A stretch of DNA of 29,562 bases, from positions 1 through 29,562 of the IMG/VR virus record IMGVR_UViG_3300013104_000062. One strand, given 5' to 3'. Below, piece after piece: positions 1,958 to 21,056 of the stretch (its first letter is position 1; every line of letters begins with the position of its first letter). The notes beneath the pieces were generated by a model. It was given only the letters and a program-made list of their open reading frames with translations, had not been told where the DNA came from and ran no database searches. This DNA comes from a virus. The position numbers were made by a program, and so were the translations under genes.

Positions 1958-2287
1958 CTATCCGCTCGCCATGCCCTGCAACTGCTTCACCGCCCTTAGC
2001 GCCGTGGCCAAGTCGCCGACCTCGATTGCCTTTTGGTAGACGTGGCGTGTCGCCTCGATACACCAGCCTCGAATTACATCCGGCTCGGCATCGGCGGATT
2101 TAGCGATACGCTGCATGGCCGCGACGATCAGGGGCATTGCCTTGGCATCTTCCCACGTTTGGGCGATGGCATCGGTGATGTCGTGCTCGGACCCGCCGGC
2201 GATGATCCAATTAAAGACCTGGTTGACCCGATCTGCCGGAAGATCCGGAACGGTCGCAAGTTCGGTGGATTTGGCGCGGCGATTCAT
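1958..2287 (-). CDS. Small helical phage protein, last gene of the late operon
   Basis: This 109-residue, probably all-helical soluble protein contains a WIIAGGSEHDITDAI segment that could be a helix-turn-helix (about residues 27-43). It is followed by amphipathic helices ending in ATALRAVKQL. Its start overlaps the stop of the upstream methyltransferase gene by ATGA, so it is translationally coupled to it. Such a small HTH-like protein can recall a terminase small subunit, but a better terS candidate sits beside terL at 23004-23501. It may therefore be a DNA-binding partner of the methyltransferase or an unrelated accessory protein. It is the final minus-strand gene before the rightward genes, and no intrinsic terminator is visible after it. 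Confidence 0.7.
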   Translation of the reverse strand: MNRRAKSTELATVPDLPADRVNQVFNWIIAGGSEHDITDAIAQTWEDAKAMPLIVAAMQRIAKSADAEPDVIRGWCIEATRHVYQKAIEVGDLATALRAVKQLQGMASG

Positions 2288-3054
2288 ACCGGTTGTTTGA
2301 TCCTGTTGTTGGCCGCGAGCTGCGCTTGCGTGATGCGTTGCTGTGCGATCTTGAAATAGCTCGCGTCTTTCTCAATTCCGATGAATCGACGGCCAGTGTT
2401 GACGCATGCCACGCCGGTTGTGCCGCTGCCCATCGTGTTGTCTAACACTAAATCGCCCTCGTTGGTGTAGGTACGGATTAAATATTCAAAAAGGGCGACG
2501 GGCTTTTGCGTGGGATGCGAGCCGGATTCGGTGATAAACTTTTGCCAAGACGACGGAACCCTCTTTTCTTTCAGAAACCCCCTACTTGATCGCATTTTTC
2601 CGTAGTTTTCCGAGGTCGTGAATTGCGTTACCTCATACTTGATCCGCGCGGCACCGGATGGAGCGCGATCTTGCATCTGCTTGTTGTATGTCCATCTGCC
2701 GTTGGCAAAGACCAGAACCTGTTCATGCTCTTTTAGCGGCTCACGGGACGTATTCGCGAAGTTCGATCCCTTCTGCTTTATCCAAATCCATTCATGCCTA
2801 AACCACTTCGGATTGCTCATTACCAGCGCCGATGTAAACGGCTGGCTTGCCGTCAGCACAATCGCTCCTCGCGGCTTGATGATCCTTTTGTAATGCGCCC
2901 ATAGCGGCTCAAACGGGATGACCGAATCCCATTTGCAGGCGGTCACTCCGTAGGGCAGGTCGCACGCGATCAGGTCAATCGACCCATCGGCGATGCGCGA
3001 CATTTCGGCGAGGCAGTCGCCGCAGAAAAGAGCAAGATCATCGAAAGGATTCAT
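2284..3054 (-). CDS. Phage DNA methyltransferase, N6-adenine/N4-cytosine type
   Basis: This 256-residue protein belongs to the N4/N6 DNA-methylase family (PF01555-like). Motif IV appears as DLPYG (about residues 32-36), a phage variant of the usual (D/N/S)PP(Y/F). It is followed by W-D-x-x-I-P-F and LTASQPFTS. The AdoMet-binding motif is C-terminal: HPTQKP and then DNTMGSGTTG (about 202-211). Having motif IV before motif I fits the beta class. The protein transfers a methyl group from S-adenosylmethionine to a base in DNA. No restriction endonuclease partner is seen, so protection of phage DNA from host restriction, or regulation, is more likely than a complete restriction system. ATGA overlaps couple it to the PLD-like gene before it and the small helical gene after it. 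Target sequence and base cannot be told. Confidence 0.9.
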   Translation of the reverse strand: MNPFDDLALFCGDCLAEMSRIADGSIDLIACDLPYGVTACKWDSVIPFEPLWAHYKRIIKPRGAIVLTASQPFTSALVMSNPKWFRHEWIWIKQKGSNFANTSREPLKEHEQVLVFANGRWTYNKQMQDRAPSGAARIKYEVTQFTTSENYGKMRSSRGFLKEKRVPSSWQKFITESGSHPTQKPVALFEYLIRTYTNEGDLVLDNTMGSGTTGVACVNTGRRFIGIEKDASYFKIAQQRITQAQLAANNRIKQPV

Positions 3055-3698
3055 TTAGCGCTATTGAACAAGTCGAGAATCCAGCCGCGATGGAACGCGT
3101 GCAAGCCTGGGTCGCCGATCAGCGTCATTTGCTCGATATTCTTGCAACTGCGGAGATTCGCGGACGATTCAACGGTGATGGTGCGCATATCCGACAGGCG
3201 GAATAGAAGTAGCTTGGCGTGCGTCCTGAGACTCGCAAACGACGCCTTGCCCGGTCGATCAGCGAAAAGCTTCTCTGCGTGGCTGTAAATATCGTTCGAC
3301 GTGCCTTTGAAGTAGTGGCTGGCCAGCAGATAAACGCGCTTGATCTGGCCATCGTCCAGCATCTCGCAAAGGGCGCTGATATTGCGTTTTGAGAACCCCA
3401 GCGTGGCGATAATGAGCTCGTCAATCTGAACGCCAGAAAGCTTCAGCACTGCGGGCACAATATGCCACAAGGCAAAGCGCCCTGATACTGCAAGGTGGAT
3501 CGCTTCATCGGCCCACGGTATGTGGTCGATGGCGTCGGCGGCGTCGGTCATTTTCCGCACGTCGCGGAAGTCCCGCCGAACGTGGCGTATGACGTGGCGC
3601 TGATCTCCCTTCAAATGCGGAAGCCGGCGCAGCTGGTCTTCAATCGCGCCGGCGCCGGTGCTGTGCAAAAGAGGATTGACGGATCGCTTGAGGCTCAT
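3051..3698 (-). CDS. Phospholipase-D-like domain protein
   Basis: The protein has 215 residues. The C-terminal half carries a single, partly degenerate PLD-type active-site signature: H160-A-K162 (HAKLLLFRL) followed by E-S-S-A-N at about 177-181. The usual Asp of HxKxxxxD is not in place. Many phages carry single-HKD proteins of this kind with the pattern HAK...SSANL...IEQ. PLD-fold proteins in phages include nucleases and DNA-binding proteins, so a nuclease or DNA-end role is possible and lipid hydrolysis is unlikely. A helical middle region (KRVYLLASHYF) precedes the motif. It overlaps by ATGA both with the upstream glycosyltransferase gene and with the methyltransferase gene, suggesting a common DNA-modification module. 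Activity is uncertain because of the missing Asp. Confidence 0.7.
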   Translation of the reverse strand: MSLKRSVNPLLHSTGAGAIEDQLRRLPHLKGDQRHVIRHVRRDFRDVRKMTDAADAIDHIPWADEAIHLAVSGRFALWHIVPAVLKLSGVQIDELIIATLGFSKRNISALCEMLDDGQIKRVYLLASHYFKGTSNDIYSHAEKLFADRPGKASFASLRTHAKLLLFRLSDMRTITVESSANLRSCKNIEQMTLIGDPGLHAFHRGWILDLFNSAK

Positions 3699-5854
3699 GC
3701 CGCTGCCGAATACTCCGGCAGCTTATCCCAACCGTGCTGCGCAGCTGCTGGCTCCCACGCCTTTTCGGGCTTGTGCAATTTTCTGTTTACGCTGTTGTGC
3801 CATTGCCAGATATATCGCGCCAGTGCGAGCGGGCTGGAAATGTCGATTGGATTGGCTGCCAGATACTTCACGGCGCCGGGCTGGCATGAGCAACTAAAGC
3901 GGGGAAGCTTCGCCACGATCTCATTCACGCGTTGCCGCACTATCGACAGGTCCGGCAGCAATGGCAGCGCGCTGAGCTCCGCCCAAACTGCCGGGCCGTC
4001 GAACGGTTCTTGCGGCGCATCCATCCGCGGCGACACTCGCCCCCGCCAGTCTACTCCCGGCTCGCCAAGGTGATGGGCGGTCAAGTCCAGTGTAATTTGC
4101 TTGTCCTGCGGCCATTGATCGCGGAAATGAATATCGGAGTGGCCAGCGTCCGGCAGAGCTTCTCTATAAAACCGCTGCTGTGATGCGTGCCAGCATTGGA
4201 AAAATCCGCTAATCGGTTGAACGTATTTTTCCTCGCTCGAATGACCTTCCCGGCGCATGCCATGAATCGCGTCGGCCTGTAGGTCCGTCTCGCAGAGCTT
4301 GGCCGCGAGGTGCGCGGGCATAATCATGTCGGCGTCAATGTGCACCAGCCAATCGCCGGAGTGCTCCGCATAGAGCAGGCGCAGACCGTCATTGATCGCC
4401 GCGCCCTTATCGAATCTCGAGCCGTTGAGGTAGAGCTTATCCGTCAAGACCACGCGAACATCGTGCTTGGCGCAGACTTCCTGCGTTTCGGTGTCGCGGG
4501 CGATGGTGACGACGGTGTAGCTGTCAAAGTATCGGCGATTGTGTCGCAACGTCTCTGCCAAGCGGTCGCCGAAGTCCACGCAAACGGTTAGAGCATGGAA
4601 GCGCGGCCGCGTCGCATCCCAGTGCTTTTGAAGATCCGAGACGTAGCTTTCTGCAATCGCCTCGTGCGGCGGCATATGGGCCGGGTCCTTCGCGGGCTTG
4701 CGCGTCCATGCCTTCCATCCACTGCACGTGATGGCTCGCTTACCGGGACAGTTGTGGGAGAAGATATATCGCTTCTCCGTGGTGGTTGGATCATGTTGGA
4801 GCAAGCTGGGAAATCCCGCGTCCCATCGATGTGCGGGCATGGCGTAGTCCAAGCCAAGATATCGCCACGCCATGTGGAAGCATTCTTTATCGCCGAACCA
4901 TAGACGCCAATAATATTGCGCACCATGTATGCGGTTCATCCAGTCGGCCAGCATCAGCGCTCGGTGGCATCGCTCTTTATCGATGACGATTTGGCCAGAT
5001 TCAAAAGCCCACTCGTCGCGGAAGGGAATACCCAAAGCCTCGAACGGAGCGGGCCCCAAGTCGCGCGACATATCCGATGGGGACAGAAAATAGTTGTCTG
5101 GCCAGAAGATGGCGCCATGCCTTGCGAACGGCTCGGAGTCCAGCAGGAAAGCCGGATCGGCGAGCGGTTCACTGTCGGCGTCGAGATAAATCACCTTGCG
5201 ATATTTGCAATTGAGGATCGCCCACGTCTTGGCGGCCCAACCGATGCAAGGCGCTTCGAGAAATGTGACGTCCAGGCCGTCCAATAGCCTTTTCTGCCAG
5301 TCGGGCATTTCATGCGGCCCGTGGACCCATTCAATGGGCAAGGTGCATCCGTAGTGCTCGCGCAGCAATCGCACCGTTACGTAGCCTGAGCAAAGGTAGC
5401 TGCCGCCGGCAAGGATGCAGATTCCGCGGCCTTCGCCTTTGAGGTCGGGCAAAGGCTGGGTGACAAAATCAGCCATTGCAAGGCGATAAGCCTCCCGCAC
5501 ATTATTCCATTTCGTCCAGCGATCAGCGCCGGGATGATCGGCACCGAGAAGCGGAACGATTTCGGCCGGCGGTGTGGCCGGCGTGAAAGGCGCGGGCTTT
5601 TGTCGCTCGATCGCGGCGCGTGTGGATGGTGAGAGCGGGCCTTTGTAGTCGAATTGCTGCGTGCGCGGATCGTTCTTTTTTACTCCCCATTCCAGCCCGT
5701 GCGGGCATTCAAAATCGACGATGTTGCCGGGTACCGTCCATGCCCGTTTAACCATGGCGCGGAAGTTCCGGCCGCGCTCCAAATCGCGGCAGACAAAGCA
5801 ATGCCCGCGGGATTTGCACTCGGGCGTTTCGGCAAAAACTGTCGTAAGCATCAT
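3695..5854 (-). CDS. Two-domain glycosyltransferase with Erv1-like C-terminal segment
   Basis: This 719-residue protein appears to contain two GT-A-type glycosyltransferase domains. Residues 1-110 include a Cys-rich start (C13, C19, C22, C50). Domain 1, about 143-370, begins ICILAGGSYL and carries the metal/nucleotide-binding DxD as IYLDADSEP (D225, D227), resembling Mnn1-like/GT71 or GT8-type enzymes. Domain 2, about 420-610, carries HIDADM (D507, D509), as in GT2-like enzymes. The tail, 640-700, has a CSC pair and a WQWHNSVNRKLHKP segment that resembles the HNxVNxxLGKP helix of Erv1/Alr sulfhydryl oxidases, without the CxxC redox centre. Such enzymes transfer sugars from nucleotide-sugar donors; the acceptor is unknown. 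It follows a cysteine-rich virion-like protein by 3 bases and overlaps the PLD-like gene. Tandem ATG codons (5854, 5851) leave the start ambiguous by one residue. Confidence 0.8.
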   Translation of the reverse strand: MMLTTVFAETPECKSRGHCFVCRDLERGRNFRAMVKRAWTVPGNIVDFECPHGLEWGVKKNDPRTQQFDYKGPLSPSTRAAIERQKPAPFTPATPPAEIVPLLGADHPGADRWTKWNNVREAYRLAMADFVTQPLPDLKGEGRGICILAGGSYLCSGYVTVRLLREHYGCTLPIEWVHGPHEMPDWQKRLLDGLDVTFLEAPCIGWAAKTWAILNCKYRKVIYLDADSEPLADPAFLLDSEPFARHGAIFWPDNYFLSPSDMSRDLGPAPFEALGIPFRDEWAFESGQIVIDKERCHRALMLADWMNRIHGAQYYWRLWFGDKECFHMAWRYLGLDYAMPAHRWDAGFPSLLQHDPTTTEKRYIFSHNCPGKRAITCSGWKAWTRKPAKDPAHMPPHEAIAESYVSDLQKHWDATRPRFHALTVCVDFGDRLAETLRHNRRYFDSYTVVTIARDTETQEVCAKHDVRVVLTDKLYLNGSRFDKGAAINDGLRLLYAEHSGDWLVHIDADMIMPAHLAAKLCETDLQADAIHGMRREGHSSEEKYVQPISGFFQCWHASQQRFYREALPDAGHSDIHFRDQWPQDKQITLDLTAHHLGEPGVDWRGRVSPRMDAPQEPFDGPAVWAELSALPLLPDLSIVRQRVNEIVAKLPRFSCSCQPGAVKYLAANPIDISSPLALARYIWQWHNSVNRKLHKPEKAWEPAAAQHGWDKLPEYSAAA

Positions 5855-5857
5855 TGG

Positions 5858-6877
5858 TTAAAAGTTATTGCAGGATGTTAGCGACACCGTGCCAAAGTCG
5901 CCGTTGTTGTGCGGACCTATGGCCCAATCGGTTGTCGTGCAAAGGCATGGATCACAGCCAGACGCGGAAACTGTGAAGCCGTTCCAGGTGCTTGGGTGTC
6001 CAGATACAGGATTGCCGGCGCCGCATGTCCCGGTTCCCGGCGTGAAGCTTGGGGGTCCGCTGTTGCAAGTAAAGCTTCCTCCGCCGGCAGTGCCGTCTGG
6101 CCATCCAACGTGGCCGCTATTTTGGTCATAAGGCGAGTTGCCGGGCGAATGAATCGTTACAACAACGGTTCCCTGCCAATCTGTAGTAGCCGTCGAACAA
6201 TCGGAGCTGCCGTCGTTTGGAATTGCCTGAACGTGACAAGTAACTTGCAAGTTGTATGGCAAGTCTGTCGCGAGCGTTCCTGTCGTTTCGCAATTGACAC
6301 CGATGAATACTGAGCCGTCGCTCGGTGGCGTTTTGTAATATTGGTAATCGGTGTAGCAACTTAGATCGTTGGTGCATGTCCAATCGGTCGTGCAGAGTCC
6401 ACCAGGGGGCAAGCCGCTGGTTGGTCGAGGTTGAAGGCAGCAATAGAACGGACCAAAAAGCGGACTGTCTAGAAAGTGAAGATTGACAAGATTCCCGCTG
6501 CCGTCATTGCCAAGAAACAAGCAATCACAGCCCGCACTCATGCCCCAAACAACGCGCACGATGCTGGGCATCGATTCATCTGCGCTGAGCGTGCAATCGG
6601 TACATGAGCATCGACAGCCGAAGCACGGTTGATATGGGCTCCCAGCCTGAAACCACTTGCCGTAATTTGGATTGGTTGTACCCCCGTCGATCGTGTGCCG
6701 CATGTCTTTGAATATCTTGCCGGTCCAATGATCGATAAGATATTTTTTGGATGGATCGATGCCGATGCGCGGAGCACTGCGGCGCGGGAGATAAATTCGC
6801 GACTGACGGCGCGCAGGCTGGCGGCGCATCGGCCGAAACACTCGCGGCATTCGGCCAAGTTCTTTAATCAGTGGCAT
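5858..6877 (-). CDS. Cysteine-rich, probably virion-associated protein
   Basis: The preferred start is ATG 6877, giving 339 residues, because it overlaps the upstream stop as TAATG; an earlier ATG at 6898 is also open. Residues 1-40 are strongly basic (R-rich). The body is rich in Gly, Thr, Ser, Pro and Cys, with about 21 cysteines often paired (PCFGCRCSCTDC, CDC, YCC, GCDPCLC). The low-complexity beta-rich composition, and its position after the tape-measure-like and small tail genes, suggest a distal tail or adhesion protein held together by disulfides or metals. No family is recognised. The neighbouring glycosyltransferase with an Erv1-like tail is the next gene. A disulfide-rich, possibly glycosylated surface protein is an inference. 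Confidence 0.7.
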   Translation of the reverse strand: MPLIKELGRMPRVFRPMRRQPARRQSRIYLPRRSAPRIGIDPSKKYLIDHWTGKIFKDMRHTIDGGTTNPNYGKWFQAGSPYQPCFGCRCSCTDCTLSADESMPSIVRVVWGMSAGCDCLFLGNDGSGNLVNLHFLDSPLFGPFYCCLQPRPTSGLPPGGLCTTDWTCTNDLSCYTDYQYYKTPPSDGSVFIGVNCETTGTLATDLPYNLQVTCHVQAIPNDGSSDCSTATTDWQGTVVVTIHSPGNSPYDQNSGHVGWPDGTAGGGSFTCNSGPPSFTPGTGTCGAGNPVSGHPSTWNGFTVSASGCDPCLCTTTDWAIGPHNNGDFGTVSLTSCNNF

Positions 6878-7353
6878 TAGGCTGACGCTCCTGAGCAACT
6901 AATACCGGCAATCGCCATGAATTCGTAAATTAGCGTACCGTCTGAGTTGGTATGCAAAAGTGAGCCGATGCCGATAGAACCGGAAGCAAGGTTATTCGTC
7001 CCGTCTGCGATCTCTAGAATATTGATTCCCATGCCCGTCGCTCCTGCTGTGCCAAGCTCCGTAGATGCAACGGGGGTTGAGCCGGTCGTGAGGATGTCGC
7101 TGGTTGGGGGATTGAGAGCGGTCACGTTGTACATTGCGCCGCGGCTACCGGGCGCGCCGATGGAAAGGATCACCAGACCCTGAGCGGTAATCTTTGTAAG
7201 CGGGGTCTGCGGAGGCGGAGGATCGATATAACAGGTGAATGTTTCATCTGTGTTGGTGACGCGCACATTCGGACCGCTGATCCGCATGTGCTGCATCTTC
7301 CGCCAGAGTTTTTCCAACTGGCGGGCCTGAGTTGGGCCGAACTTCGCATCCAT
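6877..7353 (-). CDS. Putative tail/virion protein, 158 aa
   Basis: The protein has 158 residues. An N-terminal charged helix (about 1-25, AKFGPTQARQLEKLWRKM) is followed by a Thr/Gly/Pro-rich, beta-prone region with a proline run (DPPPPQTP, about 45-52) and Gly/Ala-rich C-terminal half. The N-terminal helix plus beta-rich body is typical of small trimeric virion or fibre-associated proteins, but no named family is recognised. It starts 2 bases after the tape-measure-like gene and its stop overlaps the next gene's ATG as TAATG, so it belongs to the tail part of the operon. Confidence 0.65.
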   Translation of the reverse strand: MDAKFGPTQARQLEKLWRKMQHMRISGPNVRVTNTDETFTCYIDPPPPQTPLTKITAQGLVILSIGAPGSRGAMYNVTALNPPTSDILTTGSTPVASTELGTAGATGMGINILEIADGTNNLASGSIGIGSLLHTNSDGTLIYEFMAIAGISCSGASA

Positions 7354-7355
7354 AA

Positions 7356-9215
7356 TCAGAAGCCAAAAAGATTGGAGCCGTTGTCGTCGGTTTTGAAGCC
7401 GAGCGCAGAAAGCCCTTCCTTGACGGCGTCGGCGATGACTTTGGGGGTAGGAAGCTTTTTCAATTCGGTAACAAGATCCTGAACGGCCTTCGCTATTTCG
7501 CGTTGCGGATCGCGCTGGCTCACAAGCTGCGCCTCTTCCTGCGCATGTCCAAGCGCTCCGGCCGCGGCGGCGCTTCCGCGTCCGGAAATAGTCTGTAAAT
7601 GTGCGAGATTGCCGGGAAGCGGGCGCGTGTCGTGAATGCCGGCAATAGCCTGGGCCATTAGCAATGGGAGCATGCCAAGCTGGTGGCTGGCGGCAGCGCG
7701 GGCATCGCCGCTCATGGCCGGGTTTTCCATGATCGACAGCAATTCCCTCTGTAGGTCGCGATACTTCTGCGCGGCCTCAAGCTTCTCAATTTCAAGCTTG
7801 GCGGTACGGTCGCCGACTTCGGCCTGGGCGCGCAGAACATCAAGATTTGCCTTGGCAAGCTGCGCCTCTCGCTCCTGGGTCTTTACCCGCTCCTGCTCGT
7901 CGAATTGCTTTTTGGATGCGCCACTTTGCGCGGTGAAATTTTGGTAATCCGCCGCGGCTTCACGCAAGCCCATGAAAATATCCGTTCCGACCTGTCCGGC
8001 TCGGGTGGGGAAAAGGCTAAATGTCGTGTCGCGCAGGTCCTTCTGAATCTGATCGCGCGTCTTGCGGTTAAGATCGGCAAGCGCATCGGCAAGGGACTGC
8101 TTTAACTCTGTGAGATGCGCCTCATATTGCTGGCGCTCTTCGGTAAGTCCCGCCGCCCTGGCGTGGGCCAGCGTGTCTTGAATCCGCTTCTCGCCTGCCT
8201 CCAAGACGGCCTTGCGTTGCTTCTGCTGATCCTCCCGAAGCTTGGTGATTTCTTCCTCTGCCTGTTGATCCTTTCTCAATAAGTCGGCATTAAACGAATC
8301 CGTGGTTTTTTGGAGTTGTTCGTCGTGGACTTTTTGCTGTGTTGCCTGTTTCGTGTTGAGTTCTTCAAGGTGCGACTGAAGGGATTTGGCACGTTCCTCA
8401 AGGCGATGCCGTTCACGCTCTGGATAATATGCGTCGGAAAATTTTGCTTCGCCGTTCGCGATACGGCGCTGCTGGTCTGCCTTTTCTTTCTCGGTCTGTT
8501 CTATCTGCTTGTGGATTGCATTGATTTCACTTTGCCGCTTTTCCAGCTCGGCCTGTAAATCGGGCACCTTGGCCTTAATGAGTGCGTCGTTCAAATCCTC
8601 TTTTTGAGTGCGATGCCGTTCGTCGATCCCTTGGCGTAACTGGGCAATGGTTCGGCTGGGACCTTCGAGATATGTGTTGGCGGTGGCATTCTCGGAGGCG
8701 ATAATAGATTTGGTGAATTCCCTCTGTTGATCATGAAATGCCTTAATGGCCTCGAAGTCATGTTTACGAAATTCAGCCCGTTCCTTGTCCAGTTGCGCCA
8801 ACTCTCGTTGAATCTCGAGCTCACCGCTCATCAGGTCAACGATATTGCGCGTCGCTGAATAGAAGTTGCCCAGCAGCGGTAGGCCCTTGGCGATCTCGTC
8901 GACCATTTGGCCGCCGGTGATTTTCCCTTCATCGAATTTCTCGACCAGTTCTTTAAGCTTCTCTGTCCCTTCCGACAGTTCGCGACCCAGCAGGCCCACG
9001 CCAAACAATGCGCCGCCGCCCTCGGCAGCATGCAAGACGTGGCCGAACGTGCTGGAACGACCGAATAGCTCGTTGGCCTTTTCAAGCTGGCCGTGGATGC
9101 CTTCGCCAAACTCGCGCTCGAATACTTCACGCGCCTCGCGCGCAGCGTATTGGATTGAAGGCGCGTCGGTAGACGCCTTCACGTTAAATGTGAGGTCGTT
9201 GGGTGACTGGCTCAT
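7356..9215 (-). CDS. Tape-measure-like coiled-coil protein
   Basis: This 619-residue protein is dominated by long charged helices (about 130-500) rich in E, K, Q and R with heptad-like patterning. It has a Gly/hydrophobic stretch near 63-80 and a second near 108-130. It is the longest gene downstream of the tail tube and the frameshifted chaperone, the position of the tape measure protein in siphoviruses. Tape measure proteins set tail length at about 1.5 angstrom per residue, which would imply a tail near 93 nm if all residues contribute. Clear transmembrane helices are missing, unlike many tape measures, so a different internal tail or chaperone-like scaffold role is possible. Residues 141-159 match the membrane protein encoded at 1627-1956. 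It lies 2 bases after the preceding tail gene. Confidence 0.65.
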   Translation of the reverse strand: MSQSPNDLTFNVKASTDAPSIQYAAREAREVFEREFGEGIHGQLEKANELFGRSSTFGHVLHAAEGGGALFGVGLLGRELSEGTEKLKELVEKFDEGKITGGQMVDEIAKGLPLLGNFYSATRNIVDLMSGELEIQRELAQLDKERAEFRKHDFEAIKAFHDQQREFTKSIIASENATANTYLEGPSRTIAQLRQGIDERHRTQKEDLNDALIKAKVPDLQAELEKRQSEINAIHKQIEQTEKEKADQQRRIANGEAKFSDAYYPERERHRLEERAKSLQSHLEELNTKQATQQKVHDEQLQKTTDSFNADLLRKDQQAEEEITKLREDQQKQRKAVLEAGEKRIQDTLAHARAAGLTEERQQYEAHLTELKQSLADALADLNRKTRDQIQKDLRDTTFSLFPTRAGQVGTDIFMGLREAAADYQNFTAQSGASKKQFDEQERVKTQEREAQLAKANLDVLRAQAEVGDRTAKLEIEKLEAAQKYRDLQRELLSIMENPAMSGDARAAASHQLGMLPLLMAQAIAGIHDTRPLPGNLAHLQTISGRGSAAAAGALGHAQEEAQLVSQRDPQREIAKAVQDLVTELKKLPTPKVIADAVKEGLSALGFKTDDNGSNLFGF

Positions 9216-9217
9216 GG

Positions 9218-10186
9218 CTAATTGTTCTGGCGCAGAATGTTGATGAAAGGCACTGATCGCAATCGAGTGAATTTGAGAATCGTAACGGTCGGCGTGCTTA
9301 GATCGGCGTCAATCGGCGCGGGTCCGGAAACCGGAAGCGATGCCGCAACCGGCGTCTGTGCGCTGCTTCCATCCCACACATACCAGCGCGAATCGAGCGG
9401 CTTGCCGGTGCCGTCAAGCAAAACATCTTCGTTGGCGAAGTCGCCCTTTTTGGTACAGAACGGGCCGCGCTCCTGCGAACCGCCGGAGCTGTACCAGCCA
9501 TATCGGCCCTTATCGACCACGCGCGGTTGCCATGGGTCCTTGATGTCGGTGCGGACGTTAAGAATCACGTCCATGGCCACATATTTGTCGGTGCTCTTGA
9601 CCGCTGTAGCCAAACCGTACTTCTGGCACCACGCTTGTCCTGGTGTAACGGTCCCGATTCCGGGAATGGTGATCACGTCGCTGTTGACGGCGTTCTCATA
9701 GGTGGTTGCGGCACTTCCGTTATAAAAAGTGGCATACCAGCGGGCGCGGAAAGAGCGATACCCCTTATTGAGCGTCAACTGTGGATCGATCGGCGACTTG
9801 GCGGAATTCTGAATGGTGACGCCGGAAAGGTCCTGCAGCACCGGCTCGTAGTTCTCAACCGGCTCAATCATGAGCTCCATCGGAAGGAGGATGCGATTGA
9901 GCGGAAACGCGACGTTGTTCGAAAGCGTAAAGCTGATGCTGACCAGCCACGCTAACGGGGCAATTGATCGGGCATTGACGTGGGCCACAGTGAGTCCGGC
10001 AAATTCCGGGTCCGGGTGTGGGTCTCCGCGCTGTATCGGCGTCCCGCTGCTGTTGAGGATCTGGTTCTGTGCATCGATCTGGCTTGAAACGCCTACGATG
10101 GTCCATGCCTCGATAGCGGTAATCTGATTACCCTCGATCGCGTAGGATCGGCCGGACCAGTTGCGGGTTACTGATGGCGTACTCAT
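9218..10186 (-). CDS. Putative tail protein, 322 aa
   Basis: This 322-residue protein is beta-rich and has no transmembrane segment. It starts MSTPSVTRNWSGRSYAIEG. A central region with W, Y and N residues (RARWYATFYNGSAATTYENAV) suggests a virion structural domain. It begins 4 bases after the stop of the frameshifted chaperone fusion and ends 2 bases before the tape-measure-like gene. This is an unusual insertion between two genes that are normally adjacent in siphoviruses. A second tail tube-like protein, a distal tail protein or a baseplate component are all compatible. No family could be named. Confidence 0.65.
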   Translation of the reverse strand: MSTPSVTRNWSGRSYAIEGNQITAIEAWTIVGVSSQIDAQNQILNSSGTPIQRGDPHPDPEFAGLTVAHVNARSIAPLAWLVSISFTLSNNVAFPLNRILLPMELMIEPVENYEPVLQDLSGVTIQNSAKSPIDPQLTLNKGYRSFRARWYATFYNGSAATTYENAVNSDVITIPGIGTVTPGQAWCQKYGLATAVKSTDKYVAMDVILNVRTDIKDPWQPRVVDKGRYGWYSSGGSQERGPFCTKKGDFANEDVLLDGTGKPLDSRWYVWDGSSAQTPVAASLPVSGPAPIDADLSTPTVTILKFTRLRSVPFINILRQNN

Positions 10187-10190
10187 GGCT

Positions 10191-10879
10191 TTATGTGGGT
10201 TTCATCCACCGCGCTATTTCCTTGCGGAAAAAGCGAACGGCCTGATTGAAGCTGGCGGATTGATTTAGCGCGCCGCCGGCGATGGGCGGAAGTCCGTTTT
10301 CCAGCATGTCCGCGAATTGCAAAAACTCGACGATCGCACTCGGGAGTGACTGTTTTGGACAGGCATAAAGCGAGCGTTCGCCGTCCTGGCAGTGCTTGCA
10401 GCCTATTCCTTCACATTCGGGGCAATTGACGACTGTGGGGCTTGTCCTGCAATCGGTTTCGCATTTGCCTCGGCAGCCGGTGCAGATTCGCCCTGCCCTG
10501 AGTCCGGCTGCGATTCGGAGAAAAAACGATCTTCCTCACCGATAAGAATGGTCTTGAGCTGGCCCCACGCCAGTTGTGCCAATTCGCGGCTACTCAAGAA
10601 TTCGCCGAACCTTTTGATCTGTTTGAATTCGATCTGCTGGCCACGATAGACGACGTTTTTGCAGCCGACTACGCCGATGCGAATGGCCTCTTCGATCAGG
10701 TCTGTTGCTTTGTCGGCGTCCTTCTCGGCCGCTGCCTCGTCCAGAAGCTTGCGCAGCCTTCGGTATTCGATGTCGTTAAGGAATCGGACGAAAAAGGTTG
10801 GCCGACTTTCGATCGGCTTGCCCAAATCGTGTTTGAGGTAAAACGGCTCGGTTTCGTTGGGGTCGGCGTTGATCGGCAT
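10191..10879 (-). CDS. Tail assembly chaperone, -1 frameshift fusion (gpGT-like), 229 aa
   Basis: A long product is predicted by a -1 ribosomal frameshift at T TTT TTC (10520-10526). Residues 1-120 come from the zero frame. Residues 121-229 come from the -1 frame, which stays open from the slip site to a TAA at 10191-10193, just 4 bases before the next gene's ATG. The extension has nine cysteines (fusion residues 133, 136, 140, 144, 153, 156, 161, 164, 174) in pairs such as CTGC and CPECEGIGCKHC, like a DnaJ-type or zinc-ribbon metal site. A helical tail ends EIARWMKP. In lambda the homologous gpG/gpGT pair is made the same way; gpGT binds tape measure and tail tube proteins during tail assembly and is absent from the virion. 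The -1 frame has no start codon or ribosome site of its own. Confidence 0.8.
10403..10879 (-). CDS. Tail assembly chaperone, short form (gpG-like), 158 aa
   Basis: This is the zero-frame product from ATG 10879 to TAG 10403, 158 residues. Residues 1-118 form a charged helical domain (FVRFLNDIEYRRLRKLLDEA) as in siphovirus tail assembly chaperones. Residues 121-158 are a low-complexity Ser/Ala/Pro/Gln tail, which is what read-through without frameshifting would give. It lies between the tail tube gene, behind a strong terminator, and the tape-measure region, the standard place for gpG. In lambda most ribosomes make this short form and a few per cent make the fusion. Confidence 0.8.
   Translation of the reverse strand: MPINADPNETEPFYLKHDLGKPIESRPTFFVRFLNDIEYRRLRKLLDEAAAEKDADKATDLIEEAIRIGVVGCKNVVYRGQQIEFKQIKRFGEFLSSRELAQLAWGQLKTILIGEEDRFFSESQPDSGQGESAPAAEANAKPIAGQAPQSSIAPNVKE
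10520..10526 (-). promoter_or_regulatory. -1 ribosomal frameshift slippery heptamer T TTT TTC
   Basis: On the minus strand the bases are T TTT TTC, in the X XXY YYZ phase of the zero frame: codons 119 and 120 are TTT and TTC, both Phe. After a one-base slip the -1 frame is open for 109 codons. This heptamer type is a recognised -1 slip site. A downstream RNA structure was not folded. Confidence 0.8.
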
Positions 10880-10957: not shown

Positions 10958-11914
10958 TTATGCCTGGGTGATGGTGAATTCGTCCTGCCCGGCGCTGCTA
11001 TTGCGGTTGCATTGAAGCTCAAGCCCGTCCACCAGCATGCGGTTGCGGTCTTGTTCGTTCGGATCGCGCACGAGTTGCACGGCGGGCGCGGCAAACGTGA
11101 AATTGTTATTCGAGGCCGCGCCGACTTTGACGGAGAAAGCGCCTTGGGTAGTAGCCAAGTAATCGGCAAACCAATTCACAGTGGCCAGCGAAAGGGCCTC
11201 GGGCGCAAGGCGCAGCATCGGCTGGCGCTCCGTGATGTATGCAGCGCGGAAGCCAGTCGCCACGCCATTGGTATCCACCGCGTTGGTATCTTCGCGCAGG
11301 ATCACACTGTTGCCGGCGTCAATGTTGATATCGGGGAAGTGCAAGCCAGTCTGGCTAAAGAGCGTGAAGTTCGACGTACCGGCCCGTGGCGCCACAACGC
11401 TGAAGTAGGTCGGCGTCGGGTCGCTGGCGTCTGCCGGCGGCTGCTGCACTCCGGTAAACGTCCATCGCACTCGCACCTTTTGGCCGCGACGGATGGCAAG
11501 GCTAAACGTACCCATGCAGCCCGACAGCGTTTTCTGCCGGCCGTCAATCCACTCAACAATCGTGAGTGTGGTCGTCGCCCCGTCGACCGGGGCCCAAATT
11601 CCGCCGGTGTTGGTGTAACCACAGCCGGACAAAAGGACCGTCCACGGTGCGTTGCCCGATGCACCGTTGCCCACAAGCTCTGTCTCAAACGTGGCGGTTC
11701 CCGATCGTGCGCCGATGGCCTGGGTAACAGGCGACAGCCCGCCGAACGGTTCGCGGCGTACCGGCTCGGTGGAATTTTTGATAATTGGAATCTCGCCAAA
11801 TGCCGGCATGGTTGCATTGCTGGCGTTGACGGTTGCCGGCGTGCCGGTGGTCGTCTCGGCGGCTACGCCGATGAATCGCTTGCGTGTAAGTTTTGGGGGT
11901 GAATCAAGAGCCAT
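10958..11914 (-). CDS. Major tail tube protein
   Basis: This 318-residue protein has the features of a siphovirus tail tube subunit. The N-terminus is KLTRKRFIGVAAETTTGTPATV, the middle is beta-rich with repeated TATFETELVGNG/RVRWTFTGV-type strands, and the C-terminal region is FTITQA. Tail tube monomers stack into hexameric rings around the tape measure. A good Shine-Dalgarno (AGGAG) lies 10 bases before ATG 11914. The gene is preceded by a tail-terminator-like gene and followed by a strong terminator and the tail chaperone, the canonical order terminator, tube, chaperone, tape measure. Internal Cys (GCGYTN, GCMGTF) are present. Confidence 0.8.
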   Translation of the reverse strand: MALDSPPKLTRKRFIGVAAETTTGTPATVNASNATMPAFGEIPIIKNSTEPVRREPFGGLSPVTQAIGARSGTATFETELVGNGASGNAPWTVLLSGCGYTNTGGIWAPVDGATTTLTIVEWIDGRQKTLSGCMGTFSLAIRRGQKVRVRWTFTGVQQPPADASDPTPTYFSVVAPRAGTSNFTLFSQTGLHFPDINIDAGNSVILREDTNAVDTNGVATGFRAAYITERQPMLRLAPEALSLATVNWFADYLATTQGAFSVKVGAASNNNFTFAAPAVQLVRDPNEQDRNRMLVDGLELQCNRNSSAGQDEFTITQA

Positions 11915-11926
11915 AGCGGCACACTC

Positions 11927-12403
11927 CTAGCGGTTGTAAGGATCCTCGTACAAAGTTCGGTAGGTAACGGTGGCGAAGATGATGACGCCTTGAACGTCGT
12001 TGGCATCAGCAAACGTAAGGGGGTCGTGCAGTTCGGTGTTTTGAGCAGTTCCGCCGCGGTATGGATCGGCAACGATTGCCTTTTCCACGTCGGCGCGGAT
12101 CACATTGGCCCATGTCTCGAAACGCGTCTTTTTGAATGCTTCGGGGTCCTTCAGGATGTAGACCATAAAGCCGTAGGTCCGGCGCCACTCTTTATGATCT
12201 GAGGGGGTTTCATCGTCGGTGCATTCAACGTCGTCGCCGACGTGAATCACGCACTGCATATCCACGGGCGAAGTCTGGCCCGACATGTCGGGGAAGCCGA
12301 CGGGGCTGAGAGTCACCTGGAAATTGTTGGCGACGGTCACGCCCTGCAAGGTCTGCAAAACGTTCGCGTCCACCTGTTCTGAATATGGTGGCGTGAAGCT
12401 CAT
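11927..12403 (-). CDS. Tail terminator-like / minor tail protein
   Basis: This 158-residue protein reads VDANVLQTLQGVTVANNFQVTLSP, then VQGVIIFATVTYRTLYEDP at the C-terminus. The alpha-beta pattern, a start helix then strands and a final long strand, is that of tail terminator or tail-to-head joining proteins (gpU-like). Those proteins cap the tail tube and connect it to the head. Position supports this: it lies directly before the tail tube gene and directly after a gpZ-like gene, which it overlaps by ATGA. Sequence similarity alone is not enough to name it. Confidence 0.65.
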   Translation of the reverse strand: MSFTPPYSEQVDANVLQTLQGVTVANNFQVTLSPVGFPDMSGQTSPVDMQCVIHVGDDVECTDDETPSDHKEWRRTYGFMVYILKDPEAFKKTRFETWANVIRADVEKAIVADPYRGGTAQNTELHDPLTFADANDVQGVIIFATVTYRTLYEDPYNR

Positions 12404-13065
12404 GGATTTTGGGAAAGGTCGGGGGACGTATCGGCCGGCTGGCCCTTAGTGAAGCGATCAACCTGGCTCTGCGCCTGCTTGGCCATGTAGGCGGCGGCGT
12501 CAAATCGGATGCGCTGCAGTACGTCGGGAATAGAAACCAGCTTGTGAATCGACGGCCCGAATTGCTCTCTAATGGCCAGCCTGCCGGCGAAGCCTGCGGG
12601 GGTAAGCTTCAATGCGGGACGGCCATGCTTATTGAGTCTGCTGGCGTTGGGTCCTTTGGTCGGAAGATGCCGCGCGCGCAGGAAAATACCTTCGTGGTCG
12701 CCGCTGCCGACGTTGGCCATGAATCCGTGGCGCAGGACTACAGGCGGCAGCAACTTGCTGACCCGCACTGAGACACCGCCGCGCTTCAGCACTCGCGCCT
12801 TGAATGCTGCCAGCGGGATTGCCCGCTTTTTGACGATGACCTTGCCGACAGGCGGATCGCCTTGGGGGCTGACCTGGGTAACGACCCGATCAACCCATTT
12901 CTTGTTGATATTGACCTGACCGCGCACCTCGCGGCGAATCAGCTTCACAAGCTGCGCAGTCGTCCGCTTGACGATCTGGTAGCTTGCGCGGCGGAGCTGG
13001 CCAGCGCTGAGGCGCTCGGCAAGCTTCTGGCGCTGATCTTCCGGCAATATCAGTTCGATGGGCAT
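12400..13065 (-). CDS. Minor tail protein Z-like / head-tail component
   Basis: This basic protein has 221 residues. The N-terminal half is helical and Arg/Lys-rich (ASYQIVKRTTAQLVKLIRREV), followed by VRVSKLLPPVVLRHGFMANVGSGDHEGIFLR and a C-terminal helix. This fits prophage minor tail protein Z (PF06763-like), where a helical start leads to KRIPLAAFKARQ-like strands, a central H-G-F segment and a REQFGPS motif (here REQFGPSIHKLVSIPDV). gpZ acts in tail completion and head joining. The start overlaps the upstream stop as TAATG and the stop overlaps the downstream start as ATGA. Confidence 0.75.
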   Translation of the reverse strand: MPIELILPEDQRQKLAERLSAGQLRRASYQIVKRTTAQLVKLIRREVRGQVNINKKWVDRVVTQVSPQGDPPVGKVIVKKRAIPLAAFKARVLKRGGVSVRVSKLLPPVVLRHGFMANVGSGDHEGIFLRARHLPTKGPNASRLNKHGRPALKLTPAGFAGRLAIREQFGPSIHKLVSIPDVLQRIRFDAAAYMAKQAQSQVDRFTKGQPADTSPDLSQNP

Positions 13066-13586: not shown

Positions 13587-13931
13587 TTAGCGGCAGCGAA
13601 CGAGCCAGCCGGTCGCGTCCTGCTGAACGATTGAAACGAGCGTGTGAATCGACGGCTGGCCGCCCTCGATCGTCGGGAAAGAAAACTTGTCGCCCGATTT
13701 GGTCGGCTCGGACGGGAAACTGCTGGCGGGGATCCAAAATTCAAAAAAGGGAATGAAAGTCTCTTTGACCTTGTTGGCGCCGGCGACGGTTTCAGGCGAA
13801 ACGCGTTTGATGACGGCGGTAAATGGATATTGCCGACCGTCGGCGCGCGTGGCGGTCACTGATTCGCTAAAGATGCCCGATGACATAAAAGCGGTATGCA
13901 TCGACGCGATTTGGTCGAACGGAATGCTCAT
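13587..13931 (-). CDS. Head-tail joining protein (gpFII-like)
   Basis: This 114-residue beta-rich protein begins MSIPFDQIASMHTAFMSSGIFSES and continues with A-D-G-R-Q-Y-P-F-T-A-V and ends WLVRCR. Small phage proteins that start with a helix containing an F-G-E/S-x-x-T/V pattern and continue with a small barrel are head-tail joining proteins or connector-assembly factors (lambda gpFII class). It lies between the glycosyltransferase genes and the gpZ-like gene. An ATGA overlap couples it to the last glycosyltransferase gene, so those genes must be translated in the head-tail operon. Confidence 0.65.
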   Translation of the reverse strand: MSIPFDQIASMHTAFMSSGIFSESVTATRADGRQYPFTAVIKRVSPETVAGANKVKETFIPFFEFWIPASSFPSEPTKSGDKFSFPTIEGGQPSIHTLVSIVQQDATGWLVRCR

Positions 13932-14440
13932 GCCAAAACTCGCTTTACTTCAATGCCCCTGGCGTCGATGAGGCGAATAAGGCGGCTGTAAATTTCGCGC
14001 TCAAGCTTCCATCGCTCGGGGCTGCGATTGCCGGCCTGATTCCATCCGTCAAAGTCATTCGTGCCGGTCCAGTCACAACCGAATATCTCGATCTGCTTCG
14101 CGCCGGCGTGCGCCGCATACACAATCGCGGCGGTAAACGTGAACATGGTCCATGAACAAGAGGCAGGGTCGAGGTACGAAAATAGCTGCTCAAACTCCGT
14201 CACCTTGCCCGGCCATTCGCGTCCCTTGTCGCGCAGGTAAGCGTTGGTGTTGGCGGCAGTGAAAAGCTCCGGCTTGCCAATCACGTCAGGGCGCTGGTCG
14301 GTGAGCATGGGAATGTCGCCAGCGGCCCAAACGTCGGCGCTTCGGAAACCGATCGCCCGATTGACGGCGATGGTTAAATCGGCCGGGCTGGGCACTGCGG
14401 TTCGCAAGCTCGGACCTGGGCAAAGGATTTGGGCTCTCAT
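13928..14440 (-). CDS. Glycosyltransferase-like protein (DUF115/sialyltransferase-like fold)
   Basis: This 170-residue protein begins ILCPGPSL (residues 5-12) and goes on with AVNRAIGFRSADVWAAGDIPML. The GxGPSL...VNR...D-x-x...D arrangement is typical of the nucleotide-sugar domain of DUF115/MptE-like and sialyltransferase (GT42-like) enzymes. The second half has IFGCDWTGTND and a terminal helix. It is short for the family, so it may be a minimal catalytic domain. It is the third of three consecutive glycosyltransferase-like genes joined by ATGA overlaps inside the head operon. The acceptor is unknown; virion protein or cell-surface glycan are possible. Confidence 0.65.
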   Translation of the reverse strand: MRAQILCPGPSLRTAVPSPADLTIAVNRAIGFRSADVWAAGDIPMLTDQRPDVIGKPELFTAANTNAYLRDKGREWPGKVTEFEQLFSYLDPASCSWTMFTFTAAIVYAAHAGAKQIEIFGCDWTGTNDFDGWNQAGNRSPERWKLEREIYSRLIRLIDARGIEVKRVLA

Positions 14441-15084
14441 GCGGCAAACGGTTCGTGGCCGGGAAATCCGGCGTGCTTGCGCTGCTCAAATAGCGCCTTC
14501 GAAATTGCCCACTGGCTTTGCGCTTTGCCGAGGTGTGGCGGCGGTTGATTGGTGGAAAGCGACCAGTGCGCGTGTCGCTGGCCAAGATCGCGGCGGCGCC
14601 ACAAGACGGTTAGCCGATCGGCTACCTCTCCCGCCTCGGTATCATCAAAAAAGTGGTAGTAGTCGGGCCAGTAAGGACCGGCGCCGCGATTGATCCGCCG
14701 GGCATAGTCGGCACCCATCCAGCAATGATCGGTGGATTGTCCCTGGCTCAAGTCATACTTGGCCAAGTGCATCACGCCAAACCCATCGGGGAAGCGGGCA
14801 AAGAAATCAGCGGCAAGATCCTGCGCCGACTTATCCGCGCACGGATAAAGATCGTCGCTGCCGGCGATGATGATGTCGGCCACATCGGTTACTTCACGCC
14901 ACAACCGGTTGATTGACTTGGCATAACCTTCGTAGCGGTCTTCGATCGCCAATGAGCAATTTTTCGGCACGCGGGTTCCGGGGTCGATAAATGCCGCGAC
15001 GTGGTAACCTGCGCACGTCCACCGCGCAAAAACATCATCGGCATCGAGGCGAATCGACGGTGCGAGCATCCAGACGTTTTTCAT
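14437..15084 (-). CDS. GT-A-type glycosyltransferase
   Basis: This 215-residue protein has a GT-A-like Rossmann start (VWMLAPSIRLDADDVFARWTCAGYHVAAFID) and the acidic nucleotide-sugar motif IIIAGSDDLYP (D77, D78) after a helical segment. This resembles GT2-like enzymes in phages and bacterial glycan clusters. HWSLSTNQPPP and a C-terminal helix follow (about 173-200). It would transfer a sugar from a nucleotide donor to an unknown acceptor. The gene overlaps its upstream and downstream neighbours by ATGA, so the three transferases form a translationally coupled set. It is similar in layout, not clearly in sequence, to the large transferase at 3695-5854. Confidence 0.7.
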   Translation of the reverse strand: MKNVWMLAPSIRLDADDVFARWTCAGYHVAAFIDPGTRVPKNCSLAIEDRYEGYAKSINRLWREVTDVADIIIAGSDDLYPCADKSAQDLAADFFARFPDGFGVMHLAKYDLSQGQSTDHCWMGADYARRINRGAGPYWPDYYHFFDDTEAGEVADRLTVLWRRRDLGQRHAHWSLSTNQPPPHLGKAQSQWAISKALFEQRKHAGFPGHEPFAA

Positions 15085-15638
15085 CGCCTGAGCCTCCGGC
15101 TAGCCTGCATATGCTCGATAACCGGCTCGCCTGCCGATGCCATGACGTCGAAAATCTGTGTATAGGACGGCGGCAATTTCTCAACCTTCAAATCGGTGCG
15201 TCCGTCCACCAGATTTTGCAATACATGCTGATCCCATTCGCGCGGGCGCTCGTGGCATGCCTGGGCCCATTCATTTAAAAGCCGGTCGGCCCCTCGCGTG
15301 GCTCCGAAATAGAGCGTCCCGGATAAGAGCTCCGTTCCGTCTTTCCAGTGTGCGGCAAAATCCACGTCGGTGGGCATCTCGGGAAACAGGCTTGGGTATT
15401 GCCTGACCCGCGCATCGGCGTCCAGCCAAACCAGCGGACGGTCGGGGCCGTGCTTGGCTCGCATATGCCGGAGAAATTTCGGCTTGTATGCGCACGCTGC
15501 TACCCAATCCTGGAACGGCGGCACCGCTACTAAATCGGATGGCAGTTGGTAGCGGTCGAGAGTATGGCCAAGCTCCATTGCCTCGGCTTCGTAACCGTTG
15601 CCGGTGGTATAAAAGCAAACGTAAATTGGTGTGGGCAT
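15081..15638 (-). CDS. Nucleotide-diphospho-sugar transferase-like protein
   Basis: This 185-residue protein opens PIYVCFYTTGNGYEAEAMELGHTLDRY and has YKPKFLRHM followed by LVWLDADARV, with the DxD at D73 and D75. This pattern, a K-P-x-F helix then a strand ending in LDAD, matches the nucleotide-diphospho-sugar transferase family (PF03407-like). It then has ELLSGTLYFGATRGADRLLNEW and DQHVLQNLV, also typical. It is a short, probably single-domain enzyme with an unknown acceptor. It is the first gene of the three-gene set and lacks a clear Shine-Dalgarno. A perfect 7-bp hairpin lies 13 bases upstream. The gene before it is the DUF2190-like head decoration gene. Confidence 0.75.
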   Translation of the reverse strand: MPTPIYVCFYTTGNGYEAEAMELGHTLDRYQLPSDLVAVPPFQDWVAACAYKPKFLRHMRAKHGPDRPLVWLDADARVRQYPSLFPEMPTDVDFAAHWKDGTELLSGTLYFGATRGADRLLNEWAQACHERPREWDQHVLQNLVDGRTDLKVEKLPPSYTQIFDVMASAGEPVIEHMQASRRLRR

Positions 15639-16088: not shown

Positions 16089-17723
16089 TTATTGACCGTT
16101 GTCTTTCACGAGCCCGCGATAATCGAGCGCCTTGGCGGCGACGGTATGGCGGACGGCAAATTTCATGTCTTCGGTGTCGAATTCCTGTTCCTGGCGGAGA
16201 ACCGGCTCGGGTTCGCCTTCAAGGAATGACACTTCGACCGTTTCGACCTGAGCGTCCGCCGGGTCTGCGGCCAGATACCACGCTGCGGTAGAGTTGTCGT
16301 CCAGACGCGGATCGGTCACCAGCGTCAAGCGGTTCGCCCACGGATTGTTTGAGCCGACCGTCTGCGGCGCGGTGCTGGTGGTGCTGATCACTGCCAGAAG
16401 CTGAGTGCTGTTCAAGAAATTCTGAGCACTCGTTTCCAGACTCACCGGCGCCAGCATGAATTTCGGAGTGATATTCAAGCGGGCGGCGCCAGCCAAGCCT
16501 TTCTGTCGGCGCATCAGTGCGGCTGCCTTGCCGACTTCCGACACGCTCGGGGCCGTGCCAGAGCTGATCAAATTGCTATGGTTGGCATGGAAGAGCGCCG
16601 TATTGTCGGTAATCATCGTGGGGTTTGAAGTCACGATGGCATACGCCACGTCGTCTTCCTTACGGCCTGCGGCGTTACCCTGCTGAACAGGAATGCGTTG
16701 GAACGCGTCAAGATCGTCGTTGATCATCGCCTGGCGCGTTAATTTGATACCGCCGATGTACTCGACGAGTGCATACGTCTCGTTCGAATCCTTCAGCACG
16801 GTGTAGATGATTCCACCGCCCTGGGCGCGCTGCTGAAGGTCTCCCGCTTCGGAGATGTTTGTCCGGTTGATGGTCTTGAAGTCCGGAGCCTGTCCGCGTC
16901 GCGCCCATTTGCGCCACGTCGGCGTCTGATCGCGGTAAGCCTGCAGAAGCGACTTATTGGCGGCGTCCTTCAGGATGCCGGGGAAATCGCCGATCGATTC
17001 CGCCAGCATGACCAGCCGGCCTCCGCCTTCGTTGCGAAGATCATCACGATTCATGCAAAGCCGAATAACTCGCGAGGGCGTCATAAAGTTCACTTCGCCC
17101 ATGCCGATGGCGCTGAGGTATTGCCGGCCCATGTCCACCAGCGACAGGCTTTGGAATCGCTGAGCGCGTTCGTAGACAGACAGGCCGACGGCGTCCGTCG
17201 GCTTCTCCACTCGGCCCAAACCGCAACGGGCCTGGGCACGCAATCGAAGCGCGGTGGAAATTGTTGCCTTGAGGCTGACGGTCCCGGCGTCTTCGCCGAC
17301 GCGGATTTGTACGGCGGGGTTATTGTCGGCCATGGCTTTGAGGGCGTTGGTCTGGACCGTGGGAAGATCCCACTTCTGCGAGACAGCCAGATTCACAAAC
17401 TTTTCGTCCAGCTTGTAAATCGTGGCCAACGATTCGATATCCGTCCGGCGCTTCCGCTCCAGCGCGATAAGGTCGGGCGGCTGATTAGCCGGCGTCGCTG
17501 CGGGCGCAGCTTGGCCCGGCAGCTTGGCCGCCAGCGCTTCCGGCGTTTCGCCGGTCACCTTGGACAGAAGCTTGAGCGCCTTCTCGCGGGCCTGGGCCTT
17601 CGTGAGCTTCACCGGCGTTTTTGCCGGCGTGGCGGCAGCGCCGCTATTGGCGCTGAGGGAAACGAGCCTGACGGGCACCACGCGCGAATTGCCAGCGGTG
17701 CCACGATGAGACAACTGGTTCAT
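16089..17723 (-). CDS. Major capsid protein (Mu gpT-like, HK97 fold expected)
   Basis: This 544-residue protein has a low-complexity, Ala/Pro/Lys-rich N-terminal region (about 1-150) and a C-terminal capsid domain (about 155-544). The capsid domain contains NISEAGDLQQRAQGGGI, ALVEYIGGIKLTRQAMINDD, ALFHANHSNL, GLAGAARLNITPKFMLAP and FAVRHTVAAKALDYRGLVK. These are features of the Mu-like major head subunit family (gpT / Phage_capsid_4 type). The N-terminal region may act as a delta domain or scaffold removed by the prohead protease. A GAGG ribosome site precedes ATG 17723. It is preceded by the protease gene and a hairpin, and followed by the DUF2190-like decoration gene, the usual head order. 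Confidence 0.85.
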   Translation of the reverse strand: MNQLSHRGTAGNSRVVPVRLVSLSANSGAAATPAKTPVKLTKAQAREKALKLLSKVTGETPEALAAKLPGQAAPAATPANQPPDLIALERKRRTDIESLATIYKLDEKFVNLAVSQKWDLPTVQTNALKAMADNNPAVQIRVGEDAGTVSLKATISTALRLRAQARCGLGRVEKPTDAVGLSVYERAQRFQSLSLVDMGRQYLSAIGMGEVNFMTPSRVIRLCMNRDDLRNEGGGRLVMLAESIGDFPGILKDAANKSLLQAYRDQTPTWRKWARRGQAPDFKTINRTNISEAGDLQQRAQGGGIIYTVLKDSNETYALVEYIGGIKLTRQAMINDDLDAFQRIPVQQGNAAGRKEDDVAYAIVTSNPTMITDNTALFHANHSNLISSGTAPSVSEVGKAAALMRRQKGLAGAARLNITPKFMLAPVSLETSAQNFLNSTQLLAVISTTSTAPQTVGSNNPWANRLTLVTDPRLDDNSTAAWYLAADPADAQVETVEVSFLEGEPEPVLRQEQEFDTEDMKFAVRHTVAAKALDYRGLVKDNGQ

Positions 17724-20832: not shown

Positions 20833-21056
20833 TCGGGATCTCGGTTCTGGCCAGCCACAAAAAGGCCACTGGTTGCGCGTGCGACGCGCCACTCATATTC
20901 GCTGATGAGTTTCTGAATCTCGGCCCCGCCCATTTGCGTCATTTGCTTACCGTTCATGCTGTAGCCGGTAGCAAACGCCGAATTGACCAGCGCCATGCGC
21001 AGGACCTGAAGGATTTGCGCATCGGAAAAGTTTGGGACTGTGGAAAGATCGACCAT
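20829..21056 (-). CDS. Head-tail joining protein (gpW-like), 75 aa
   Basis: The start is placed at ATG 21056, 4 bases after the terminase stop, giving 75 residues. Upstream in-frame ATGs lie inside the terminase gene. The sequence is a helix-loop-strand-helix: FSDAQILQVLRMALVNSAFATGY, a short MNGKQMTQMG loop, IQKLISEYEWRVARA. This fits gpW, the small protein that closes the lambda head-tail joint, or a related connector. Its order, after terL and before the portal, is that of lambda W. The stop overlaps the portal start. Confidence 0.75.
   Translation of the reverse strand: MVDLSTVPNFSDAQILQVLRMALVNSAFATGYSMNGKQMTQMGGAEIQKLISEYEWRVARATSGLFVAGQNRDPE

Follow-up and report, generated by a model that had tools for sequence, protein, structure and literature searches.

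The minus strand of the virus record analysed here very probably encodes a tail assembly chaperone of the lambda G/GT type, whose T domain belongs to a distinct, cysteine-rich family that is probably stabilised by zinc. Frameshifted tail chaperones are themselves classical; what appears to be new is the recurrence of an unnamed family of cysteine-rich T domains in many distantly related phages, a subtype with eight cysteines, and the alternation of the family with the domain DUF1799.

Genomic context

The window, that is, the whole 29,562-nucleotide stretch of the IMG/VR virus record that was analysed, carries a head-tail module on its minus strand, including:

21061-23007, minus: terminase of the GpA type
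18973-20892, minus: portal protein of the lambda family
16089-17723, minus: protease-capsid protein
12400-13065, minus: neck protein
11927-12403, minus: tail terminator, a weak match
10958-11914, minus: tail tube protein, the presumed partner of T, recognised by tblastn against its counterparts in several phages
10403..10879, minus: G, zero-frame tail assembly chaperone of 158 aa, by ORF and by the G profile of relatives
10191..10520, minus: T domain, 109 codons and TAA, with a cysteine-rich N-terminal part and a helical part reading G-LPP-x-x-GG-x-x-NQ
9218-10186, minus: ORF X, 322 aa, separating T from the probable tape measure
7356-9215, minus: probable tape measure, 619 aa, coiled coil, the presumed partner of G, by position and composition only

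The G gene immediately follows the tail tube gene identified by tblastn. A profile search with the 619-aa coiled-coil ORF gave no significant match. In relatives the tape measure lies downstream of T, whereas in the window ORF X stands between T and the presumptive tape measure; no homologues of ORF X were found in IMG/VR or among GenBank phages at the sensitivity used. The intervening ORF X and the unmatched profile of the 619-aa ORF weigh against the G/GT reading.

The slip site and the -1 frame

The zero frame of G ends at a TAG (10405-10403), and its first 120 residues are common to G and GT; the 38 residues past the slip site are rich in Ala, Pro, Ser and Gln. Within the codons CGT TTT TTC the slippery sequence is in X XXY YYZ phase. 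Upstream of 10535 the -1 frame is not open, so that a switch of frame is possible only between 10535 and 10403, an interval in which TTTTTTC is the sole in-phase X XXY YYZ heptamer, and in whose 44 codons 0.045 classic heptamers would be expected by chance. The following elements mark the site:

10520..10526, minus: slippery heptamer T TTT TTC, -1 phase
10534..10540, minus: GGTGAGG, Shine-Dalgarno-like by sequence, 7 nt before the heptamer
10473..10511, minus: 8-bp GC-rich stem GCAGCCGG/CCGGCTGC, 8 nt past the heptamer

The Shine-Dalgarno-like sequence is a possible stimulator of slippage. The stem could be another, its z-score of -1.2 being no better than that of shuffled sequence. Counting against the site, the zero frame stops 38 codons past the slip in the window, as against 0-9 in most relatives; over all loci this tail ranges from 0 to 51 codons, and in L043 and L061-L065 it covers 20-51.

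The T frame ends with a TAA (10193-10191) four bases ahead of the ATG at 10186 and contains nine cysteines in its 109 codons. An earlier note on this DNA had described the zero-frame stop, the heptamer and its phase, the extent of the -1 frame and its nine cysteines, and all were borne out by codon phase and translation. No ATG, GTG or TTG precedes the cysteine region in the T frame of the window, and a start before the cysteines is likewise absent in L010, L031, L040, L043, L064, L065 and L066. Past the zero-frame stop, codon usage of the -1 frame is gene-like, the other two frames scoring negatively, and GC content at the three codon positions (0.59/0.46/0.67) is close to that of the other genes (0.59/0.47/0.68). 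In the 39-codon overlap, on the other hand, codon usage of the -1 frame is poor (-8.9 bits), which counts against it.

Homology of G and T

A T profile built from eight relatives, with the window left out, placed the -1 ORF of the window above all others of the 602 window ORFs and above 2000 shuffles of that ORF (18.6 bits; highest-scoring shuffle 8.3). Similarly, a G profile from eleven relatives gave the window G 29.2 bits, the best of 2000 shuffles reaching 7.2. In an alignment of 15 T sequences seven columns are invariant (C, C, C, C, G, G and Q), and the window has all seven residues, namely C13, C16, C24, C54, G76, G82 and Q87. This comparison of G and T is decisive in placing the -1 frame far beyond chance. 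The earlier proposal of a gpGT-type tail chaperone is thereby upheld, being supported by the synteny with the tail tube gene, the homology of G, the heptamers and the conserved -1 domain.

Named families offered little help. Searches of Pfam, PHROGs and NCBIfam linked the window G directly to none of their named chaperone families, and the cysteine-rich T domain is unmatched in Pfam, PHROG, NCBIfam and the PDB. Flu_PB2, suggested for G by Pfam and by matching PDB hits, was rejected as a chance match, covering about 50 aa below the Pfam cut-off with no biological link.

Relatives and their slip sites

No close relatives of the window chaperone were found in the collections searched. Direct searches of IMG/VR with the window G, T and ORF X, and of GenBank phages with the window G, found no relatives, while the window T had merely insignificant matches among GenBank phages (E 0.3, Synechococcus phages); scans of viral sequences queried with A6 and with the tail tube protein of the window returned nothing. 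Relatives were instead reached through the capsid protein (IMG/VR contigs) and the tail tube protein (GenBank phages). The first eight GenBank phages read showed the order tail tube, small G ORF, -1 ORF and tape measure, with an in-phase AAAAAAC, GGGAAAC or TTTTTTC linking the two chaperone ORFs. The last of these, the heptamer of the window, recurs only in Microcystis phage yong1, the T domain of which is not of the cysteine type.

Two kinds of T domain are prominent among the relatives, DUF1799 and cysteine-rich. The latter was first seen in P24, JP1, L010/L011, L018, L023/L026 and L031, and further searching added Rhizobium phages L338C, RHph_I4 and RHph_TM16, Rhodobacter phages RcTiptonus and RcZahn, and Microcystis phage Mae-JY22. 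Sampling of genomes from two phyla yielded further, prophage-like loci of the cysteine type (3 of 294 and 5 of 398 genomes). In total, related -1 domains were identified in 22 loci, every one of which has an in-phase slip heptamer (22/22), placed 11-19 codons before the first cysteines in 21 of them (12 in the window). In the remaining locus, L032, the first cysteines have been lost and the distance was measured from the CP. The alignment of relatives proposed in the earlier note therefore gives a heptamer at 22 of 22 loci and four cysteines invariant in 15 sequences; loss of the heptamer or of the -1 frame, which the note had named as evidence against its claim, was not encountered among these relatives, all of them distant. 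Submitters of the Rhodobacter phages label members as tail assembly chaperones, and many deposited records annotate the -1 ORF as a separate gene.

How the T domain is made

Several other accounts of the open -1 frame have to be weighed. That it is an accident or a pseudogene remnant without a product is barely credible. Taken alone, its composition has a P of about 0.003-0.02, made up of about 0.02 for an open frame of 109 codons and about 0.003-0.01 for at least nine cysteines; the earlier argument that random sequence would not give such a composition thus holds moderately for the cysteines, is weak when taken alone, and leaves the decision to homology. The poor codon usage of the overlap also favours an accident, against which stand the independent T profile match, the invariant C, G and Q columns and the gene-like codon usage past the stop. 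Independent translation of the -1 ORF, with ribosomes re-initiating internally or by coupling, would fit the close succession of G and T and the separate annotation of the second ORF in many records; with no start before the cysteines in the window and seven further loci, and a slip heptamer at every locus, it is most improbable. Transcriptional slippage on the T6 run would yield mixed frames and the same products as a ribosomal slip, and the heptamer does open with six T. Six bases are, however, short for polymerase slippage, and relatives use GGGAAAC or AAAAAAC in the strict phase for tRNA re-pairing, which indicates the ribosome, so that this route is very unlikely. The use of a programmed -1 slip here is well supported by sequence; its efficiency is inferred.

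The cysteine sites

The conserved residues of T fall into three groups:

10359..10484, minus: core cysteine site C13, C16, C24 and C54 of T (CxxC-x7-C ... CP), a probable zinc site, invariant in 15 sequences
10389..10424, minus: inserted CPEC-EGIG-CKHC module (C33, C36, C41 and C44), a probable second zinc site, its spacing shared with L018, L023, L031 and L060
10260..10295, minus: conserved G76...G82-G83...Q87 motif, of which G76, G82 and Q87 are invariant

Across the family, the N-terminal part of T has the typical spacing C-x2-C-x4-11-C-x16-35-CP, and the helical C-terminal part a G-LP-x-GG-x-DQ-like motif. The window and L018, L023, L031 and L060 form an eight-cysteine subtype, in which C-x2-C-x4-6-C-x2-C (C-x1-C in L031) is inserted before the last core cysteine, the next cysteine following 9-10 residues on. 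In the window the insert spans the zero-frame stop and reads CPECEGIGCKHC, which looks like one half of a CxxCxGxG centre of DnaJ; C20, the ninth cysteine, belongs to neither site and is not conserved. The earlier note had thought a zinc-finger-like extension a less common version of the chaperone. This calls for refinement, the cysteine-rich T domain itself being a recurrent family and the rarer form being the subtype with a second CxxC-CxxC module.

From these spacings, the core cysteines probably bind one zinc ion and the insert a second. Structure prediction with AF2, from few input sequences, was of low confidence, with a mean pLDDT of 55 for the window T and 69 for the L023 T, and gave no reliable model of a metal site; a Foldseek search with the predicted T domain returned nothing at E <= 0.001, and VIA likewise had no usable match. 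The cysteines might instead hold an iron-sulphur cluster, or form disulphides as a redox switch. The spacing of CTGCRGKCETDC resembles that of iron-sulphur proteins, and nine cysteines exceed by one the number required for two zinc sites. The core and insert spacings of relatives, however, are CxxC pairs as in zinc ribbons and knuckles, C20 is not conserved, and the phage cytoplasm is reducing, which makes such a cluster or switch rather unlikely compared with zinc.

Resemblance to the DnaJ/Hsp40 cysteine-rich domain (BSD2 and anti-TRAP type) is seen in the CxxCxGxG-like spacing of CPECEGIG-CKHCQDG in the window, and the window T has subthreshold matches to BSD2_CRD and Anti-TRAP. Identity with this domain was rejected, one full motif being present rather than four and the Pfam and PDB matches not being significant. 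Separately, L032 contains a T-like sequence (14976-15296; a weak match, E 0.04) that keeps the CP and G-x-x-x-EQP while the first three of the core cysteines are gone, suggesting that some lineages may do without the metal site.

Comparison with known systems

As with lambda gpG/gpGT, the gene lies downstream of the tail tube gene, the -1 slip falls within the 3' part of G, and T, without a start of its own, is made only as a fusion; this shared layout makes G/GT the best reading of the locus. The lambda heptamer is G GGA AAG, unlike the T TTT TTC of the window. The window further differs in its cysteine-rich T domain, that of lambda not having been described as such to our knowledge, and in the extra ORF ahead of its presumptive tape measure.

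The nearest parallels among named phages are Alteromonas phage P24, Agrobacterium phage JP1, Microcystis phage Mae-JY22 and the Rhizobium (L338C, RHph_I4, RHph_TM16) and Rhodobacter (RcTiptonus, RcZahn) phages, which share with the window a slip heptamer and a -1 T domain with CxxC..C..CP and G-LP-GG-Q; P24, JP1, L338C, RHph_I4, RHph_TM16 and RcZahn also have a tail tube protein homologous to that of the window. Unlike the window, these phages have no cysteines beyond the core four in the region of the metal site, slip on AAAAAAC, AAAAAAG or GGGAAAC, and lack a large ORF between T and the tape measure. The members of the eight-cysteine subtype, IMG/VR contigs L018, L023 and L031 and the prophage-like L060, differ from the window in slipping on AAAAAAC or AAAAAAA and in having the zero frame stop 0-1 codons past the slip; the T domains of the three contigs are about 20-25% identical to that of the window. 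In these four loci the spacer between the two cysteine pairs of the insert is 5-6 residues long, and the following cysteine lies 10 residues on.

DUF1799 (PF08809) is significant for the T domains of S-LBS1 and RC1, with which those of S-CBS1, RcWaterboi, ThpS-P1 and L004 align. Phages of this kind resemble the window in tail tube family, position of G and -1 slip arrangement, whereas their T domain lacks the cysteine site. Homology of the window T to DUF1799 was rejected, as there was no hit and hhalign gave a probability of 0.2% between the families. A single tail tube family is found with either T domain, DUF1799 in L035, L036, L037, L038, L041 and L004, and the cysteine-rich type in L010, L039, L040 and the window; two T domains with no detectable similarity thus serve one tail tube family.

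Proposed mechanism and significance

In lambda, the tape measure is held by G and by the corresponding part of GT, T attaches to the tail tube subunit, and the virion retains neither G nor GT (PMC5009743). By analogy, most ribosomes in the window would make G (158 aa), while a minority would slip by -1 on T TTT TTC to give GT, a protein of 229 aa made up of a 120-aa G domain and a 109-aa T domain. Both products would coat the tape measure through the G domain, and T would bind and recruit the tail tube protein, whose gene lies immediately upstream. The ratio of G to GT would then set the orderly polymerisation of the tube, after which both would leave. The N-terminal cysteine domain of T would most likely carry one structural zinc, to which the window and the four other loci of its subtype would probably add a second site on the insert.

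A more far-reaching proposal is that the cysteine-rich T domain, under the control of metal or redox state, gates the loading of tail tube protein on the tape measure, and that phages with a common tail tube family exchange it with DUF1799. This is unlikely, but if true, tail assembly in the lineage would depend on the zinc or redox state of the host.

Searches of the open-access literature for cysteine, zinc or CxxC tail chaperones, with most subscription papers outside their scope, found no description of a cysteine-rich T domain, and neither these papers nor Pfam, PHROGs, NCBIfam or the PDB yielded the eight-cysteine subtype or the way the family alternates with DUF1799 within a single tail tube family. 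Within the chaperone, handling of the tail tube falls to T. The searches matched the cysteine-rich family to no solved structure, and its strictly conserved cysteines offer an assayable handle, through zinc content, cysteine mutants and a small domain, on how T recruits the tube. For annotation, a heptamer followed 11-19 codons on by CxxC..C..CP..GG..Q forms a usable signature for tail chaperones missed by Pfam, PHROGs and NCBIfam.

Other genes of the window

At the edge of the window, on the opposite strand, ORF 2-967 (plus) has no Pfam match at 0.01; by eye, its GESYGT motif resembles that of serine carboxypeptidases, and the region is possibly the host flank of a prophage. A 719-aa ORF beside the tail genes (3695-5854, minus) matches Pfam Mannosyl_trans3 and Evr1_Alr, with Glyco_tranf_2_4 subthreshold, and on these matches appears to be a glycosyltransferase-like fusion. 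Three small ORFs within the head-tail module (13928-15638, minus), with a Nucleotid_trans match in 15081-15638, are possible sugar-transfer cargo among the structural genes. A 346-aa ORF of the tail region (5858-6898, minus), without a family match, is also cysteine-rich (CFGCRCSCTDC...), and an N6_N4_Mtase DNA methylase is encoded at 2284-3054 (minus).
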